A stretch of DNA of 64,000 nucleotides from Nocardia spumae (GTDB lineage: Bacteria; Actinomycetota; Actinomycetes; Mycobacteriales; Mycobacteriaceae). The notes beneath the pieces were generated by a model, which was not told the origin of the DNA, did no database searches, and saw only the letters and a list, made by a program, of their open reading frames with translations. Position 1 is the first letter of the stretch. Each line of letters starts with the position of its first letter. The stretch lies in assembly GCF_020733635.1 (NCBI RefSeq), contig NZ_JAJFZL010000001.1, positions 6,262,001 through 6,326,000 on the forward strand, in the 5' to 3' direction. A program made the translations under genes and the position numbers. This document shows positions 56,867 through 64,000 of this stretch, piece by piece.

Positions 56867-56942
56867 GCCCTCGTAGCTCAGGGGATAGAGCACCGCTCTC
56901 CTAAAGCGGGTGTCGCAGGTTCGAATCCTGCCGAGGGCACCA
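56867..56942 (+). tRNA. tRNA-Arg (anticodon CCT)
   Basis: 76 bases including encoded CCA. The acceptor stem GCCCTCG pairs with CGAGGGC, the D arm is GCTC/GAGC, the anticodon stem CCGCT/AGCGG holds the loop CTCCTAA (anticodon CCT at 56900-56902, reading AGG), and the T arm GCAGG/CCTGC encloses TTCGAAT. All stems are perfect. tRNA-Arg genes are common integration sites; I saw no repeated 3' end that would mark an attachment site. Confidence 0.97.
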
Positions 56943-56966
56943 ACCTGCGACGATATTTCCGCAGGT
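56943..56966 (+). terminator. hairpin immediately after the tRNA
   Basis: ACCTGCG (56943-56949) pairs exactly with CGCAGGT (56960-56966) right behind the CCA end. Confidence 0.45.
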
Positions 56967-57095
56967 CAAACGAATACATTGCAGATCCAGGATCATCGCG
57001 ACCAAGGAACTCCCTGGTCGAACACGGTCCCTTCCAGTGCCCGTAGGGCACATGGAACAAGGGAACGCAGAGGCCTGCACCTTCGGTTTCGGTGA

Positions 57096-57388: not shown

Positions 57389-57418
57389 ACCAAACCGCGG
57401 CCGAACGCCTCGCGAAGT
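57389..57418 (+). promoter_or_regulatory. SigK-type promoter motif, copy 1
   Basis: ACCAAACCG (57389-57397), 15 bases, then CGAAGT (57413-57418). Same layout as copies 2-4. It would start transcription near 57425, some 230 bases before the fasciclin gene. Confidence 0.55.
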
Positions 57419-57568
57419 CCTGGTGGCGCCCATCGGATGCGTGCCCGGGGCGACTTCGGCCGCCCGCAGTTCGGACACCGTCGGCCGAGATCCACATCTG
57501 TACAACTCCTCGGCCGACGGTGAACGCTGCCCGCTTCGATTCATCCGCGAAATCCCTTGCGGCGCAGG

Positions 57569-57598
57569 ACCAAACCGCTCATCCGGGCGGATCGAACT
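57569..57598 (+). promoter_or_regulatory. SigK-type promoter motif, copy 2 (fasciclin gene)
   Basis: ACCAAACCG (57569-57577), 15 bases, then CGAACT (57593-57598). Predicted start near 57605 leaves a ~50-base leader with the ribosome site AAGGA before the fasciclin ATG. Confidence 0.65.
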
Positions 57599-57654
57599 CG
57601 GAGTTGTCCTCTCTTCTCGCGGCCGTCGGGCCACCTCTCACGAAGGAACGAATG

Positions 57655-58296
57655 ATGAATCTGGTGCAGCGTTCGATGGCGTCGGTAATCGCGCTGGCAG
57701 CGGTGACCGCGGGTCTGACGGCGTGTTCGAATGACGATTCCAGCGGTTCGAGCACGTCCATGCCTGCCACATCGATGTCGAGTACCCCGAACGCCTCCGC
57801 CACCGCGGATCTCGTCGGCCCCGGCTGCAAGCAGTACGCGCAACAGGTGCCCAGCGGCGCCGGGTCGGTCGAGGGAATGGCACAGGATCCCGTCGCCGTC
57901 GCGGCCTCGCACAATCCGATGCTCACCACTCTGACCGCGGCGGTATCCGGACAGGTGAACCCCCAGGTCAACCTTGTCGATACCTTGAACGGCGGACAGT
58001 TCACGGTATTCGCGCCTGTGGACTCGGCGTTCGCGAAGATCCCCGCGGCCACCATGGATTCGCTGAAGACCGACTCGGCGACGCTCAACAAGATCCTCAC
58101 CTATCACGTGGTGGCGGGCCGGATCTCCCCCGATCGGATCGCCGGCACACACAAGACCGTCCAGGGCGCCGAGGTAACCGTGACCCGCGACGGTGACGCC
58201 ATCAAGGTCGGCGACGCCTCGGTGATCTGCGGCGGCGTGCAGACCGCCAACGCGACGGTGTACATGATCGACACCGTGCTGATGCCGCCTGCCTGA
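57655..58296 (+). CDS. fasciclin-domain lipoprotein (MPT83/MPT70-like)
   Basis: 213 aa. A lipoprotein signal ends in LTAC (Cys24), then a Ser/Thr-rich linker, then one FAS1 domain with [19 protein letters not shown] and [10 protein letters not shown]. In M. tuberculosis the homologous MPT70/MPT83 are the main SigK targets, matching the sigma gene next door. ATG 57655 is seven bases from AAGGA; ATG 57652 is possible. Anchored outside the membrane; role in adhesion or envelope sensing is inferred. Confidence 0.9.
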
Positions 58297-58340
58297 TCTC
58301 CCCGCGCGTACGCGATTCACCGCCCGATCCGCGTGCGCGA

Positions 58341-58365
58341 CGAACCGAAACCCGTCGGCGCCGAA
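58341..58365 (+). promoter_or_regulatory. possible variant SigK-type promoter before the first sigma gene
   Basis: CGAACCG (58341-58347) and CGAA (58362-58365) are 14 bases apart, one less than in the main copies. About 80 bases before the sigma gene. Confidence 0.35.
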
Positions 58366-58445
58366 GCCCACGACCACGAACCATCGGAGCTCACGGACCC
58401 GTTGCGTCCGAACCGGTTCCACGAATAACGGCAGGTGCGAACACG

Positions 58446-59072
58446 ATGAACGAACTTCTCGACCAGCGGCAGCCGGCTCCGGGCGTATCGCCCGCCACAG
58501 ATCGGCAGGACAGCGGGGTGCAACACCGGCTCGCCGAGTTGCTCGTCGCGGTGAGCAACGGTGACCGGGACGCGTTCACCGCGTTCTACCGGATGACCGA
58601 TCAGCGGGTCTTCGGACTCGCGTTGTGGATGACCCGCAATGCTGCCATGGCCGAGGAAGTCGCTCAGGAGGTCTACCTCCAGGTGTGGTCTCTCGCCGGG
58701 CGCTACAACCCGGGAATGTCCACTCCCATCGGCTGGGTGCTGATGCTCACCCATCGTCGCGTCGTCGACCGTATACGTTCCGAACAGGCGGCTTCCGGTC
58801 GCGAATCGGTGTACGGCGCCGTGCACCGGGGCCGCGACCACGACGTGGTGTTCGAAACGGTCGAACAGCGACACGACGAGCGGGCGGTCCAGCGTTGCCT
58901 GACACTGCTGACTCCGCTGCAACGCGAATGCATCGTGCTCGCCTACTACGGCGGACTCACCTATCCACAGGTGGCGGCACGGTTGGGAGCCCCGGTGCCG
59001 ACCGTGAAATCACGCGTTCGGGAAGGGTTCAAACGCATGGCCGGAGCTCTGAACGGGAGCGTCTGCCCATGA
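58446..59072 (+). CDS. sigK: ECF sigma factor, SigK-like (copy 1)
   Basis: 208 aa with region 2 (FYRMTDQRVFGLALWMTRN, EEVAQEVYLQVW) and region 4 (LTPLQRECIVLAYYGGLTY, GAPVPTVKSRVREGFKRM). The HRRVVDRIRSEQA linker and neighbouring fasciclin and RskA genes point to SigK rather than other ECF groups. Its stop overlaps the anti-sigma start (ATGA). Presumably held inactive at the membrane by that protein. Confidence 0.85.
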   Translation: MNELLDQRQPAPGVSPATDRQDSGVQHRLAELLVAVSNGDRDAFTAFYRMTDQRVFGLALWMTRNAAMAEEVAQEVYLQVWSLAGRYNPGMSTPIGWVLMLTHRRVVDRIRSEQAASGRESVYGAVHRGRDHDVVFETVEQRHDERAVQRCLTLLTPLQRECIVLAYYGGLTYPQVAARLGAPVPTVKSRVREGFKRMAGALNGSVCP

Positions 59073-59809
59073 GCGGTTCGGAGTCATCGGAGCTGGATCT
59101 ACTCGGACTCGCCGAGCAGTACGCGCTGGATGCTCTGACAACGGTGCAGCGCGGCATGGTCGAGGACCGGCGCGAGCGATCGGACCGGTTCGCCGCGGCC
59201 GAGTTCGATGCCGCGGTCGCGGCGGTCCACGAGGTTCTCGCCCAGCTGAGCGTCGTGACCGCCTGCTCACCACCACACGGTATGGAGAATCGGATTCTGC
59301 ACGCGCTGGACAACAGCGCGTGCACCGGGCGCTCAGTGACGGCAGGCCACCGGGCGTGGTGGCCGCCGCCGCGACGAGACCTGGTACTGGTGACCGCGAC
59401 AGCGGTACTGGCGCTGGGCGGGTTGGTGGCAGTGACCGCACAGCACTTCGCCGGCCGTGACAGCCCACCGGCGATCACGGCCATGGCAATCGACGCCCAA
59501 CCCGATCTGGTCGTCAGGACGGTGCCGGCGGCGGACGGCGGACGGGTGGAGGTCCACAGCTCGGCAGGTCTGTCCGAACTCGCGGTATCGGTCGCCGGAC
59601 TACTCCCGCCGGGACCGGACCGGTCGTATCAGATCTGGCTGAGTTCGGCGGACGGAACCACCGACTCACTGGCCGTTTTCGACTCACCGCCGGCCTCGAC
59701 GGTGGTGGCCGGATTTCGCTCCGCGGACACGATCGCTGTGACGGTGGAACCGGCTGGTGGCTCGCCAAGGCCGACGACGAAACCGATCGCGAGCATCGAC
59801 CTGAGCTGA
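59069..59809 (+). CDS. rskA: anti-sigma factor, RskA-like (copy 1)
   Basis: 246 aa. The N-terminal sigma-binding part (LLGLAEQYALDALTTVQRG) lacks a zinc HxxxCxxC motif, as in RskA. One membrane helix (about residues 108-132) is followed by an extracytoplasmic beta domain ending AGGSPRPTTKPIASIDL. RskA releases SigK after regulated proteolysis. Overlaps the sigma stop by four bases and is followed by the oxidoreductase 37 bases later. Confidence 0.85.
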   Translation: MSGSESSELDLLGLAEQYALDALTTVQRGMVEDRRERSDRFAAAEFDAAVAAVHEVLAQLSVVTACSPPHGMENRILHALDNSACTGRSVTAGHRAWWPPPRRDLVLVTATAVLALGGLVAVTAQHFAGRDSPPAITAMAIDAQPDLVVRTVPAADGGRVEVHSSAGLSELAVSVAGLLPPGPDRSYQIWLSSADGTTDSLAVFDSPPASTVVAGFRSADTIAVTVEPAGGSPRPTTKPIASIDLS

Positions 59810-59846
59810 TCCAGCAGCTCGTCCACCTGAGACGGAAGTACTGATC

Positions 59847-61409
59847 ATGACCGCGTCACACGGCACATCCGCTGTGCCGGAGGGGAATACGCGACGGCAG
59901 CGGATCGGCGCGATGCGGGCCGCCGTCGCGGGTGCGCTCGCCGCCGCGACGGTGCTCGCCGTCGGGCATCTGGTCGCCGTAGTCGTCGCCCCGGCCTCCT
60001 CGCCGTTCTTCGCGCTCGGCGCCATGATGGTGGACCACACACCACACGAGTGGAAAGACGCCGCAATCCGCCGCTTCGGCAGCCACGACAAGGATGTGTT
60101 GTTCGCGTCGATGGCGGTGGTGATGATCGTCGGCGCGGCCTGCGCCGGTCTGCTGGAACGCCGTCGCCCCCTGGGCAGCGGTCTCCTACTGGGCCTCGGC
60201 GGTTTCACTCTGTGGGCCGCGCTCACACGCCCCTCCGCCACACCGATGTTCGCGATCCCCACGATCGCCGGGATCCTGTCGGGTGTGGTCGCCTTGCGGC
60301 TGTTGACCATCGCAGCTCCCACCTCACGTTCATCCACCGGTAATGCTATGTCGCGCAGGCGATTCCTCGGCACGGCGGCCGCCGTCGCGGCAGTGGCCGC
60401 CGGTAGTGCCGCCGCGGCTCGCCTACTCGCACACCAGTTGCGGGACGTGGCGGCCGACAGGGCCAGGTTTCCGCTGCCTCGGCCGCGACTGACCGCGCCC
60501 GCGGTGCCCACACAGCCGCGGGTCCGCGGTCTCAGCGCGTTCATCACGCCCAATGACGCCTTCTACCGTGTCGACACCGCCTTGCAGCCGCCCGCACTCA
60601 CACGCGCCGACTGGCGGCTACGGATTCACGGAATGGTCGGCCGCATGGTCGAATTCGATTTCGATCGGCTGGCCAGGCACACGCCTATCGAACGGATCAT
60701 GACGATGACATGCGTATCCAACGAGGTCGGCGGGAACCTCGCGGGCACCGCACGCTGGCTCGGATATCCACTGTCGGAGTTGCTCGCCGAGGCCGGGCCC
60801 GAACCCGGCGCGGATATGGTGTTGTCCCGCAGCGTCGACGGGTTCACCGCGGGAACGCCGTTGTCCGCGATTCTGGATGGCCGTGACGCGATGCTCGCGA
60901 TCGGCATGAACGGCGAGCCGCTGCCCATCGAGCACGGCTACCCCGCGCGGCTGATCGTTCCCGGACTCTACGGTTATGTGTCGGCGACCAAATGGGTCGT
61001 GGACCTGGAGGTCACCCGCTTCGATCGGGCGAGGGCCTACTGGACCGATCGCGGTTGGTCGGACCGGGCGCCGATCAAGACCGCCGCGCGCATCGATGTG
61101 CCAGCCGCCTTCGCGTCGGTGCCGGCGGGGCGGGTGACGGTGGCCGGTGTGGCATGGGCGCAGCGCAGCGGTATCGCGACGGTCGAGGTGCAGGTCGACG
61201 ATCAGCCGTGGCGACTCGCGGAAACCGCCCCGCAGTATTCGCTGGACACCTGGCGGCAGTGGACCTGGTCCTGGGATGCGACACCCGGAACACACACACT
61301 CCGCGTGCGCGCGACCGACGGCGAGGGACGGACACAGACCGAACGGCGTGCCGCTCCCTTTCCGGACGGCGCCACCGGCTGGCACAGTCGCGTCATCACA
61401 GTTTCCTGA
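59847..61409 (+). CDS. membrane-anchored molybdopterin-dependent oxidoreductase (sulfite-oxidase family)
   Basis: 520 aa. About four membrane helices (residues ~28-155) are followed by a Tat-like segment SRRRFLGTAAAVAA near residue 170, then a sulfite-oxidase-type Moco domain with the ligand cysteine in MTCVSNEVGG (Cys289), and a C-terminal Mo-co dimerisation domain (VAGVAWAQRSGIATVEVQVD). The catalytic part should be outside the membrane. Probably in one operon with the sigma and anti-sigma genes, hence part of the envelope response; may repair oxidised methionines or oxidise sulfur compounds (inference). Confidence 0.85.
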   Translation: MTASHGTSAVPEGNTRRQRIGAMRAAVAGALAAATVLAVGHLVAVVVAPASSPFFALGAMMVDHTPHEWKDAAIRRFGSHDKDVLFASMAVVMIVGAACAGLLERRRPLGSGLLLGLGGFTLWAALTRPSATPMFAIPTIAGILSGVVALRLLTIAAPTSRSSTGNAMSRRRFLGTAAAVAAVAAGSAAAARLLAHQLRDVAADRARFPLPRPRLTAPAVPTQPRVRGLSAFITPNDAFYRVDTALQPPALTRADWRLRIHGMVGRMVEFDFDRLARHTPIERIMTMTCVSNEVGGNLAGTARWLGYPLSELLAEAGPEPGADMVLSRSVDGFTAGTPLSAILDGRDAMLAIGMNGEPLPIEHGYPARLIVPGLYGYVSATKWVVDLEVTRFDRARAYWTDRGWSDRAPIKTAARIDVPAAFASVPAGRVTVAGVAWAQRSGIATVEVQVDDQPWRLAETAPQYSLDTWRQWTWSWDATPGTHTLRVRATDGEGRTQTERRAAPFPDGATGWHSRVITVS

Positions 61410-61438
61410 CCAAACCGAGGCGCGCCGCACGTCGAAGC
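61409..61438 (+). promoter_or_regulatory. SigK-type promoter motif, copy 3
   Basis: ACCAAACCG (61409-61417) starts on the last base of the oxidoreductase stop; 15 bases later CGAAGC (61433-61438). The predicted start falls at ATG 61445 of a small ORF; the second sigma gene lies 350 bases further on. Confidence 0.6.
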
Positions 61439-61444
61439 ACGGTT

Positions 61445-61558
61445 ATGCACCCAATCCACCGTCCGTCGCCACACCCCGTGCCCGCCGCCGCGGACCGCAC
61501 ACCACGCGGCGGGCTTGCCGTGGCGTGCGGCGTCCGGCGCGGAGTGAGATCACGGTGA
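61445..61558 (+). CDS. possible leaderless 37-aa ORF
   Basis: ATG 61445 lies six bases after the -10 of promoter copy 3, where transcription should begin. The peptide starts MHPIHRPSPHPVPAAA and is Pro/Arg rich. It may be a leader of the second sigma operon. The remaining stretch 61559-61798 shows only an in-frame upstream extension of the sigma ORF (from ATG 61580, with AGGAG). Confidence 0.3.
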   Translation: MHPIHRPSPHPVPAAADRTPRGGLAVACGVRRGVRSR

Positions 61559-61798
61559 TCGATACAGGAGATATCGGCAATGCACCGTCACGCCCGTTTC
61601 CCGCCGGGCGCCCTCGCCCGCGAATCGAGGCCGTCCGCGCGTCCACTCCCCCGCAGAGCGGCGGGTACGGTTCACCGAGCACAACCATCGCTGCGGTCAA
61701 TGTCGTCCGCACGCGTGGCAGATCGTCGCACCGGTAATCGATTGTGGCCGGCATCCGAATTGCCATCGGGATACGCCCATACAGGAAGACACAGTGCT

Positions 61799-62461
61799 AT
61801 GGCGGATGAACACGCTGAGTCGCCCGGGGCGACCGATCACGTCGGGGTGCGTGTCGAGGAGCTCGATGCCTGCTCGATACATCGGGCGCAGCCGGACCCG
61901 GAAGCGGCACGACAGCTCGCCGAGCAGCTGCGAGGCATCGCGGACGGCGACCGGCTCGCCTTCACCCAGTTCTACCGATCCACCAACCACCGCGTCTACG
62001 GCTTGGCACTGCGCATTCTGCGGCGGCCGGCCGCCGCGGAGGAGATCGCGCAGGACATCTATCTCTACGTGTGGAACGAGGCGGAGCGGTACGACTCTCG
62101 CCTCGCCAGTCCGATCGGATGGCTCATGATGCTCACCCATCGGCGCGCCGTCGACCGCGTTCGCGTCGAATCCTCCTCCACCACACGTGATCTCGCGTTC
62201 GGCCACCGCAATCTGGGCCGCGATCACGATATCGTCGCCGAGACGGTGACCCAGCGGTCGGAGGAACGCGCGGTCGTCGAATGCCTCGCCACGCTCACCG
62301 AGACACAACGCGAGACCGTGGCCCTGGCCTACTACGGCGGGCGCACCTATTCCGAAGTGGCCGAACACCTCGACATACCGCTCAACACCGTGAAAACCCG
62401 CATTCGCGACGGTTTCAAGCGGCTGCGCAACTGCCTGGCGGGATCGGTGAGCGATGCCTGA
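61799..62461 (+). CDS. ECF sigma factor, SigK-like (copy 2)
   Basis: 220 aa, clearly paralogous to the first sigma: FYRSTNHRVYGLALRILRR, EEIAQDIYLYVWNEAERYD, PIGWLMMLTHRRAVDRVRVE and LALAYYGGRTYSEVA-type region 4 with NTVKTRIRDGFKRL. The N-terminus is about 12 residues longer. ATG 61799 follows AGGAAG; a longer form from ATG 61580 would be 293 aa, too long for the family. Overlaps its anti-sigma gene by eight bases. Confidence 0.8.
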   Translation: MADEHAESPGATDHVGVRVEELDACSIHRAQPDPEAARQLAEQLRGIADGDRLAFTQFYRSTNHRVYGLALRILRRPAAAEEIAQDIYLYVWNEAERYDSRLASPIGWLMMLTHRRAVDRVRVESSSTTRDLAFGHRNLGRDHDIVAETVTQRSEERAVVECLATLTETQRETVALAYYGGRTYSEVAEHLDIPLNTVKTRIRDGFKRLRNCLAGSVSDA

Positions 62462-63224
62462 CACCGATCCGCACAGCGAACTGCTCGAGCTCGCACACCT
62501 CTACGCGCTCGATGCCCTGTCCGAGCGGGACCGAGCCACCGTCGAGCGTCTGCTCGACACCACCGCTCCTGATCTCGCGGCGGCATTTCGCACCGAGGTG
62601 TACGGGCTGCACGAGACGCTGGCACTCATGACCGTGGTCGACAGCGTGCCCGCGCCGGCGTCCCTCGAGGCGACTCTGCGGCACGCACTCGACGCCCGCG
62701 GCGCGAAGCCGGTCGAGGAAGGCGTTTCGCCGGACCGGGAGGTGGCATCCGTGCACAGCATCCGGTCCCGGCGGCTGCGCGATCCGCGATGGCTGGCCGC
62801 CGCGGCGGCCGCCGTGATCGTCGTCGCGGGAGCCGCGGCGGGAATCGCCGGATACAGCACTAGATCCCACGACACCGGCGCCGTCACCGCACAACAGGTC
62901 ATCGACCACTCGGACGCCCGCGAACAGACGGTTCCCGTCGAAGGCGGCGGCACGATCACCGTCAACGCATCACGCGAACTCGACGCGGCCGTCGTGTCGT
63001 TCGCCACCGTCCAGGCCCCGCCGACCGACCACACCTACCAGCTGTGGCTGATTTCGGCTGCGGGCCAGATTCGTTCGGCCGGTGTTCTGGACGCACTGCC
63101 GACCGAACAGGCCCCGGCCCTCGTGCGCTACGGGGACGCGGGCACGCTGGCGGTGTCGATCGAGCCGGCGGGCGGCTCACCCCAGCCGACCACCCAGCCG
63201 ATCGTCGGCGTACCGCTCACCTGA
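62454..63224 (+). CDS. anti-sigma factor, RskA-like (copy 2)
   Basis: 256 aa. Same plan as copy 1: N-terminal LLELAHLYALDALSERDRA, one membrane helix (about residues 118-138), and a homologous extracytoplasmic domain (YQLWLISAAGQ, AGGSPQPTTQPIVGV). The start overlaps the sigma stop in ATGCCTGA. The two pairs look like a duplication that has diverged. Confidence 0.85.
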   Translation: MPDTDPHSELLELAHLYALDALSERDRATVERLLDTTAPDLAAAFRTEVYGLHETLALMTVVDSVPAPASLEATLRHALDARGAKPVEEGVSPDREVASVHSIRSRRLRDPRWLAAAAAAVIVVAGAAAGIAGYSTRSHDTGAVTAQQVIDHSDAREQTVPVEGGGTITVNASRELDAAVVSFATVQAPPTDHTYQLWLISAAGQIRSAGVLDALPTEQAPALVRYGDAGTLAVSIEPAGGSPQPTTQPIVGVPLT

Positions 63225-63245
63225 GTTCGCACATTCCGAAGCGCT

Positions 63246-63275
63246 ACCAAACCGGTCGCCGGGGCTGACCGAAAT
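63246..63275 (+). promoter_or_regulatory. SigK-type promoter motif, copy 4 (cold-shock gene)
   Basis: ACCAAACCG (63246-63254), 15 bases, then CGAAAT (63270-63275). The predicted start near 63282 is 24 bases before the cold-shock gene ATG and upstream of its ribosome site. Confidence 0.65.
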
Positions 63276-63305
63276 CCCTTCGAAGTCGAGGAAGGGACGG
63301 CCACC

Positions 63306-63518
63306 ATGGCAGGGATGCACGGCACGGTGAAGTGGTTCAACCGGGAGGTGGACTTCGGGTTCATCGCTCCCGATGACGGAGGTCCGGACCTGCTGGTCGA
63401 GACCGCGGACGTGGTCGCCGAGCCACCCGGCCGGCAACTGCGGGAAGGCCAAGCGGTCGATTTCGACATCACGATCGGATCGAAGGGACCGCAGGCTCGG
63501 AAGGTGTACTGCCGCTGA
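63306..63518 (+). CDS. small cold-shock-domain protein with altered RNA-binding motifs
   Basis: 70 aa. MHGTVKWFNREVDFGFIAPDDGGPD aligns, in outline, to the cold-shock start, but RNP1 KGFGFI reads VDFGFI and RNP2 (usually VFVHxS) reads LLVETADV, losing an aromatic and the histidine. The C-terminal strand GPQARKVYCR is normal. It may bind RNA weakly or have another role. GAAGGGACGG is the ribosome site. Preceded by SigK-type promoter copy 4. Confidence 0.8.
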   Translation: MAGMHGTVKWFNREVDFGFIAPDDGGPDLLVETADVVAEPPGRQLREGQAVDFDITIGSKGPQARKVYCR

Positions 63519-63563
63519 GCCCGAGTCGAACCCCTCGCGATGTGCCGCTCCGGTCCACGATCG

Positions 63564-63589
63564 AACCGGGGTACGGCACGGCGTGAATC
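63564..63589 (+). promoter_or_regulatory. SigK-type promoter motif, divergent copy (terminal esterase)
   Basis: AACCG (63564-63568), 15 bases, then TGAATC (63584-63589). Spacing equals the other copies but both hexamers differ slightly. Predicted start about 50 bases before the esterase gene. Confidence 0.4.
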
Positions 63590-63642: not shown

Positions 63643-64000
63643 GTGCGAGTATCACGAACGGCGGTGACCGCCCGGCTCCTCGCCGGTGCGCTGGCCGCCA
63701 CCGCTCTGGTCGCCACGGCAGGCGTGGCCGGCGCCGCCCCCGAGACGGCCGGGGTCGTCTCCGTGGAGCAGGTGGGCGACAGACAGCAGAAAGTCATGGT
63801 GTTCTCGCCGAGCATGCACCGGGCGATCCCGGTCCAGGTCGTCCGCGCGGCGGACACGAGCGCCCCACGTCCCACGGTGTATCTGCTCAACGGGTCGCAA
63901 GGCGGGCCCAACGAGAGCGGCTGGGATGCCGAGACCGACGCGGTGAACTTCCTGCGCGGCAAGGACGTCAACGTCGTGAACCCGGTCGACGGCGCCAGCT
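63643..64000 (+). CDS. antigen-85-like secreted esterase (cut by window edge)
   Basis: The first 119 codons are inside the window. A signal peptide ends GVAGAA, then TVYLLNGSQGG (oxyanion region) and KDVNVVNPVDGAS, close to the esterase at 18207-19286. AGAGG at 63631-63635 supports GTG 63643; ATG 63622 is in frame. Its active site lies beyond the window. Confidence 0.75.
   Translation, partial: MRVSRTAVTARLLAGALAATALVATAGVAGAAPETAGVVSVEQVGDRQQKVMVFSPSMHRAIPVQVVRAADTSAPRPTVYLLNGSQGGPNESGWDAETDAVNFLRGKDVNVVNPVDGAS

Follow-up and report, generated by a model that had tools for sequence, protein, structure and literature searches.

What is the bipartite motif ACCAAACCG-N15-CGAA that recurs in a gene cluster of Nocardia spumae, and which factor reads it? 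The cluster lies towards the end of a 64,000-nucleotide stretch of contig NZ_JAJFZL010000001.1 (the window, meaning the whole stretch that was analysed) and encodes two pairs of an extracytoplasmic function (ECF) sigma factor of the SigK family and its anti-sigma factor RskA. A preliminary description of this DNA had taken the motif for the recognition site of the local sigma factor. It was found that the motif behaves as a SigK-family promoter signal in sequence comparisons, and that the same gene families carry it in other Nocardia genomes. The four motifs are very probably promoters for a SigK-family sigma factor with a derived -35 element, CCAAACC (hereafter class A), and the motif looks like a Nocardia-specific variant of the SigK-family promoter. 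The four putative promoters are as follows.

57389..57416, + strand, class A SigK-type promoter P1 (ACCAAACCG-N15-CGAA), 30.4 bits, heading a candidate structured RNA
57569..57596, + strand, class A promoter P2, 20.9 bits, 55 nt before the fasciclin start
61409..61436, + strand, class A promoter P3 before SigK2, 16.0 bits, the weakest of the four
63246..63273, + strand, class A promoter P4, 32.3 bits, 32 nt before the cold-shock gene

The motif in the window and in the genome

Exact copies stand at 57389, 57569, 61409 and 63246 on the + strand, as described, and none appeared in 100 shuffles. ACCAAACCG alone occurs only at these four places in the 64 kb, where 0.25 are expected. A motif common throughout the genome would have spoken against the preliminary description; in the whole genome (7,066,968 bases, 7.07 Mb) the four exact matches are confined to the cluster, four further places match with one mismatch, and the reversed pattern has no match. 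Three of the one-mismatch places are inside long open reading frames (ORFs), and the fourth (L008) lies in no listed ORF and has none downstream on the same strand. A weight matrix, which was trained on 45 sites of other genomes with the window sites left out, gave four sites in the window above its cut-off of 6 bits, at 63246 (32.3), 57389 (30.4), 57569 (20.9) and 61409 (16.0); the best score among 20 Markov-1 copies of the window was 15.7, so that P3 is by score alone just marginally beyond chance. A chance origin of the motif is ruled out by the shuffles, the genome counts, the matrix scan and the fixed spacing in relatives.

The genes around the four sites are as follows.

57652..58296, + strand, fasciclin-domain gene (MPT83-like; PF02469)
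58446..59072, + strand, SigK1, ECF sigma factor of the SigK family (profile matches, tree)
59069..59809, + strand, RskA1, full-length anti-sigma-K factor (PF22618, PF10099)
59847..61409, + strand, molybdopterin oxidoreductase (PF00174)
61799..62461, + strand, SigK2, start uncertain (profile matches, tree)
62454..63224, + strand, RskA2, full-length anti-sigma-K factor (Pfam)
63306..63518, + strand, cold-shock-domain protein (PF00313)
63564..63589, + strand, AACCG-N15-TGAA, the fifth copy of the preliminary description, not supported as a class A site (below 6 bits)
63643..64000, + strand, mycolyltransferase (Ag85/Cmt1 family), whose ORF runs past the window to 64665

The copies had been placed outside the main genes, which holds in general, except that the copy at 61409 shares one base with the molybdopterin-oxidoreductase gene, the last of its stop codon. 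Three had been placed at sensible distances from a start codon; only the two given above, for 57569 and 63246, are close, and from CGAA to the start there are 235 nt for 57389 and 143 or 362 nt for 61409, which has two possible starts. Ahead of its listed start, the SigK2 frame continues without a stop as far as an ATG at 61580 (61580-61798), with a stretch resembling a ribosome-binding site there, and SigK2 may thus carry a long N-terminal extension. Folding gave no support for a special hairpin at 61480-61560, in the leader of SigK2 (z -0.06).

The proposed regulon is supported by sequence comparison for the fasciclin gene, the second sigma/anti-sigma pair and the cold-shock gene. Its terminal "esterase" has its nearest relatives among the Cmt1 and antigen 85 mycolyltransferases, and the looser fifth copy assigned to it failed to reach the cut-off of the matrix scan. 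The position of that copy is about where many orthologous genes carry a class A site. The window mycolyltransferase has no good site of its own in the matrix scan, and its transcription may come by read-through from P4, the promoter of the cold-shock gene.

Conservation of the motif

Is the motif found before the same genes elsewhere? Of 98 Nocardia genomes, 42 contain the exact motif, at 54 places in all (four of them in the N. spumae genome), against two places for the reversed pattern. Outside the N. spumae genome there are 50 exact places, and the DNA around 30 of them was read, giving 31 sites (one locus has two). Homologues of the target genes follow 26 of these sites, each of which is oriented towards its target gene: 17 precede the mycolyltransferase orthologue, six a fasciclin gene, two a SigK gene and one a cold-shock gene, while five precede none of these. 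Of these five, one heads an amine-oxidase operon (L010), another the candidate structured RNA described below followed by an amine-oxidase gene (L029), and a third the same candidate RNA close to a contig end (L032). Exact class A motifs in two genomes (L013 of G043 and L025 of G089) stand before no recognised target, and only the core-type SigK was found in both genomes. The strict class A pattern was found in three of 151 genomes of the family, all of them Nocardia, and in none of 141 genomes of 30 other genera.

Alleles of the -35 element

The canonical SigK -35 element is CCATCC. Class A sites, with CCAAACC, do not have it, and the preliminary reading of the motif needs amending on this point. 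All 38 class A sites in regions fetched by protein combine a CGAA -10 element with a C-rich -35 element at N16. A word-pair search of upstream DNA revealed CCCATCCG-N15-CGAA in 11 of 14 fasciclin orthologues without a class A motif, and also before the third SigK of N. spumae, SigK3. Likewise, ACCAATCCG-N15-CGAA lies upstream of 18 of the 19 loci of the KN type. The three classes, A (CCAAACC), B (CCCATCC) and C (CCAATCC), are single steps apart and have the same distance (16 nt) to CGAA.

Among 164 distinct upstream regions, class A was counted 51 times at N16, class B 39 times, class C 20 times and CCCAACC once, a count biased for class A by the loci that were fetched by motif (L010-L039). 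These regions yielded none of the three classes at any other spacing from N10 to N22, and none of three control words at N16. When the motif-fetched loci and the N. spumae genome were left out, the remaining 146 protein-fetched regions had 38 A, 38 B, 19 C and one CCCAACC at N16, and no A, B or C at N10-15 or N17-22. Core SigK loci (n=20) have 14 class B sites, two class C sites and two CCGATCC sites, with two loci lacking a site; the SigK loci of five other genera (n=20) have 14 B, one C, one CCGATCC and no A, with four lacking a site. As class B is found in the core SigK loci and in other genera and class A is absent there, B is probably ancestral and A a Nocardia derivative.

The alleles are nearly constant within a type of locus. 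With positions 3-5 of the -35 element left free, mycolyltransferase sites have AAA 25 times, AAT twice, GAA once and CAA once; the 29 protein-fetched orthologues alone give AAA 23, AAT 2, GAA 1 and CAA 1, with two loci without a site. Sites of the SigK1 clade have AAA 16 times and AAT once, with two off-pattern. K3 sites have CAT 39 times, 15 others and no AAA, and all 14 KN sites have AAT. In the main site types, positions 3-5 agree at 86-100%, a figure taken from sites that had been selected for A/C, A and A/T at these positions, while mean agreement in the spacers is 41-49% (65% for the KN clade). That these positions agree while the spacers diverge suggests selection on the alleles.

SigK factors of N. 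spumae and their relatives

It had been proposed that the local sigma factor reads the motif. The SigK family fits, but any of the five SigK-like sigma factors of this genome (E <= 1e-30) may be the one. These are SigK1, SigK2, SigK3 (G000:C1:499437), the core SigK (G000:C1:6048975) and a distant one (4186721). Against PRK09646 (NF007228, cut-off 226), SigK2 scores 241.6 bits, SigK3 241.5 and SigK1 218.4, which is just below the cut-off although this is still its best family. With 277.5 bits, the core SigK has the best score of all five for the SigK profile. SigK3 has CCCATCC at the same spacing to CGAA as class A, and the core SigK has CCAATCC upstream. The cysteines at 133 and 183 were compared, Cys133 being the VTEC cysteine by alignment to the solved structure and by published primer numbering. 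SigK2 has both. SigK1 keeps the Cys133 equivalent (C151) and has Ala201 at the place of Cys183. The core SigK lacks a cysteine at both places, and a short RskA-like frame comes after it. In SigK1 the equivalent of Cys183 is missing even though its partner RskA1 is full length, and a further cysteine stands at residue 207.

In a tree of 103 SigK genes, sites within 1.5 kb upstream were of class A in 21 rows and of class B in 37; 44 rows had neither, one was unscored and none had both. Class A rows are found only in the K1 clade (16 A, 3 none) and the K2 clade (5 A, 10 none, 1 too short), although in one of the five K2 rows (L042) the site comes from the SigK1 gene upstream, and class B rows only outside these two clades. 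Four of the K2 rows without a near site (G011, G024, G067 and G070) have a class A promoter 4-6 kb upstream, at the head of the operon. The constraint that K1 and K2 form a single clade was not rejected (p-AU 0.446). K1 and K2 co-occur in 11 of the 98 genomes and occur singly in 16 and 15. The genome sets behind these counts were assigned by hand from the 103-protein tree, and a few genomes absent from it (G008, G071 and G084 among them) were placed manually; Fisher values computed on the sets are approximate and confounded by relatedness. By the same assignment, 37 of the 38 genomes with the mycolyltransferase gene carry K1, K2 or K3, against 21 of the 60 without it, with relatedness not removed.

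In relatives, class A heads an amine oxidase-DUF1365-CMAS-DUF1295-sigK2-rskA2 operon. Back-to-back pairs of class A promoters were found at five of 13 mapped loci, in five genomes (six loci with the duplicate locus of G050). One promoter of a pair faces the fasciclin gene or K1, and the other K2 or the operon just named. The gene order of this operon matches that of the sigK locus in M. tuberculosis. PMC7509140 describes M. tuberculosis sigK as autoregulated through the Rv0449c promoter.

A candidate structured RNA after P1

The first motif is more than a spare promoter of the fasciclin gene: it heads a conserved candidate RNA of about 110 nt.

57417..57526, + strand, candidate structured RNA with three hairpins (folding z-score, covariation)

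A hairpin with a 14-bp stem lies between the first and second motifs (z -5.95 for 57465-57535). Hairpin 3 spans 57476-57522, hairpin 1 about 57425-57445 and hairpin 2 about 57448-57465; hairpins 1 and 2 are not both in the minimum-energy fold of the window's own sequence. Relatives have hairpins of different sequence at the equivalent place. A consensus was built from 12 stretches that were aligned by sequence alone, the structure being derived from the same alignment that was used for pair counting. It has three hairpins and 22 pairs, to which hairpin 2 adds merely three, and 13 of the 22 have changes on both sides (shuffled mean 6.7; 0 of 500 shuffles as high), as is expected of compensatory changes in a conserved structured RNA. 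The consensus cells are paired at 90.9%, against 26.9-45.8% with the partners slid.

A covariance model gave 13 hits in 12 of the 98 Nocardia genomes (these and the other genome-wide RNA searches were run with Infernal's stricter filters), and 11 of the hits are members of the alignment. The model was trained on sequences chosen for following class A sites, so the new hit in G040, again after a class A promoter, is the sole independent one. The hit in G042 (E 0.0036) has no class A promoter and is probably due to chance, and a hit at L146 (27 bits) overlaps a cold-shock promoter and was dropped. In total there are 13 members in 12 Nocardia genomes, including G225 from outside the 98-genome sample. 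Among 201 genomes of the family, matches to the model were confined to three, all of them Nocardia.

Rfam gave no match at the gathering score and only sub-threshold microRNA matches. No description of the RNA or of the CCAAACC form was found in the open-licence literature, and the candidate RNA appears to be previously undescribed. Actinobacterial small RNAs with C-rich loops, such as 6C, have stable GC stems. The candidate resembles them in its stable GC stems and in a C-rich loop (CCCCGA in most members), and differs in having no Rfam match, in its three hairpins and in that the window's own loop is not C-rich. At related loci (L028/L159 of N. jejuensis and L032 of G092), class A and then class C promoters stand in tandem with the RNA between them, as in the window except that the window's second promoter is of class A. 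In G049, matches to the amine-oxidase gene that follows the RNA are spread over two reading frames, so this gene may be broken.

Weighing the readings

Several observations weigh against the reading of the motifs as promoters for a SigK-family sigma factor and of the RNA as structured. The sites in relatives are to some extent linked by common descent, the P3 score barely exceeds its Markov control, and the RNA region of five relatives, folded one sequence at a time, reaches modest scores (best z -1.8 to -2.6). Moreover, among the 27 genomes whose fetched loci have class A before the mycolyltransferase gene, 20 have no detected K1 or K2 gene. The link between sigma factor and allele is thus not strict; either another SigK reads class A in these genomes or the -35 element is read loosely. 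If the motif were instead the operator of an ordinary transcription factor, its fixed spacing, the orientation of 26 sites towards the target gene, the CGAA kept at -10 and the position shared with the canonical SigK -35 elements of related operons would be hard to explain, and this is very improbable. Assuming promoters, SigK factors may read a degenerate -35 element, CC[AC]A[AT]CC, with the A, B and C alleles marking promoter strength or history rather than different sigma factors. I consider this a serious candidate, close to an even call: the 20 genomes keep class A before the mycolyltransferase gene while their K3 sigK operons are of class B where a site is seen, and the clades are not cleanly told apart by any one residue of region 4.2. 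A simple switch in the recognition helix (GF versus AL) fails because most class A sigma factors have GL. It is difficult to reconcile a degenerate element with alleles that are nearly fixed per locus although the spacers diverge, or with the single CCCAACC, one step from both A and B, among the 164 regions. Alternatively, the -35 element may be specific to each clade; K1 and K2 would read CCAAACC, K3 and the core SigK CCCATCC, and KN CCAATCC, as insulated SigK circuits in one cell. The segregation of A and B rows in the tree, without a row having both, the class C sites of KN and the K1+K2 clade that was not rejected are all consistent with this. Nevertheless, class A occurs in genomes without K1 and K2, the core SigK loci are mixed, and the association is confounded by the shared descent of sigma factor and promoter; I consider clade specificity less likely than not.

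The RNA after P1 raises a parallel choice. It may act solely in cis, as the leader (attenuator) of the fasciclin/SigK1 operon, and not be a separate small RNA, which is a real though not favoured possibility. Eight of the 13 members have no CCNANC[CT]-N16-CGAA site in the 260 nt after the RNA, and there the P1-type promoter must also serve the downstream gene. On the other hand, five members (the window, N. jejuensis, G092, G049 and G040) have a second SigK-type site within 50 nt past the RNA end, so the RNA may be a stand-alone small RNA, and the downstream genes differ (fasciclin, SigK1, amine oxidase). A separate small RNA is part of a broader proposal that I hold only tentatively. P1 would drive a new small RNA of the SigK regulon, made together with SigK1 and SigK2 as a post-transcriptional arm, whose three hairpins include a loop that is C-rich in most members and could pair with ribosome-binding sites; the SigK paralogues would split -35 recognition by single-base steps, from CCCATCC through CCAATCC to CCAAACC.

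Comparison with known systems and setting of the cluster

PMC7509140 describes the SigK-RskA system as an mpt83-sigK-rskA cassette in Mycobacterium and other genera; M. smegmatis is reported there to lack the sigK-rskA pair. The window shares with this system the fasciclin-sigK-rskA order, the RskA domains and a SigK site before the fasciclin gene. Both RskA1 and RskA2 contain PF22618 and PF10099, the N- and C-terminal RskA domains. The CGAA -10 element is also that of the canonical SigK loci, as found here at those loci. The window differs in that its -35 element is CCAAACC instead of CCCATCC, in its two linked SigK/RskA pairs, and in having a cold-shock gene and a mycolyltransferase gene as apparent targets. 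In the same paper, the core SigK of Nocardia is described with a truncated RskA. The core SigK of N. spumae (G000:C1:6048975) is of this type and agrees with that description. In contrast, RskA1 and RskA2 of the cluster are full length, and the cluster sigma factors keep both cysteines (SigK2) or only C151, with Ala201 (SigK1).

The cluster sits after a tRNA-Arg (CCT) gene.

56927..57083, + strand, direct repeat from the tRNA-Arg 3' end, with a diverged copy 8.09 kb downstream, outside the window

The repeat begins within the 3' end of the tRNA-Arg gene, is about 155 bases long and contains a palindrome. Its two copies (56927-57083 and L009:8117-8273) are 79-86% alike in ungapped blocks, are spaced 8.09 kb apart and bracket the SigK cluster. 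Given the tRNA gene and the diverged repeat, the cluster may be an island. A scan of 22 loci, which took in related islands and a putative empty site, showed no tRNA gene. A second mycolyltransferase copy (G000:C1:2812857-2813804, L226) is 82% identical to the window copy. Upstream of it, a stretch that resembles a decayed class A site can be made out by eye; this copy lacks a clear start and may itself be decaying.

Proposed mechanism and meaning

According to PMC7509140, what triggers the SigK cascade has yet to be identified. In N. spumae the response would begin when RskA1 or RskA2 releases its sigma factor, presumably through proteolysis of RskA. RNA polymerase carrying the released SigK would then start transcription just after CGAA. 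P1 would yield the structured RNA, either as a small RNA ending near hairpin 3 or as a leader that is bypassed through P2. P2 would yield fasciclin-SigK1-RskA1-oxidoreductase and P3 SigK2-RskA2, which together would mean positive autoregulation of both sigma/anti-sigma pairs. P4 would serve the cold-shock gene and perhaps, by read-through, the mycolyltransferase gene. As the outcome, both pairs would be amplified, and the envelope genes, the cold-shock protein and the RNA would be switched on.

At these loci, the -35 alleles of paralogous ECF sigma factors in one genus form a series of natural variants, while the -10 element and the spacing stay constant. Such a series lets the co-evolution of sigma factor and promoter be measured directly, and the candidate SigK-dependent RNA output would be a new handle on the role of the SigK system.

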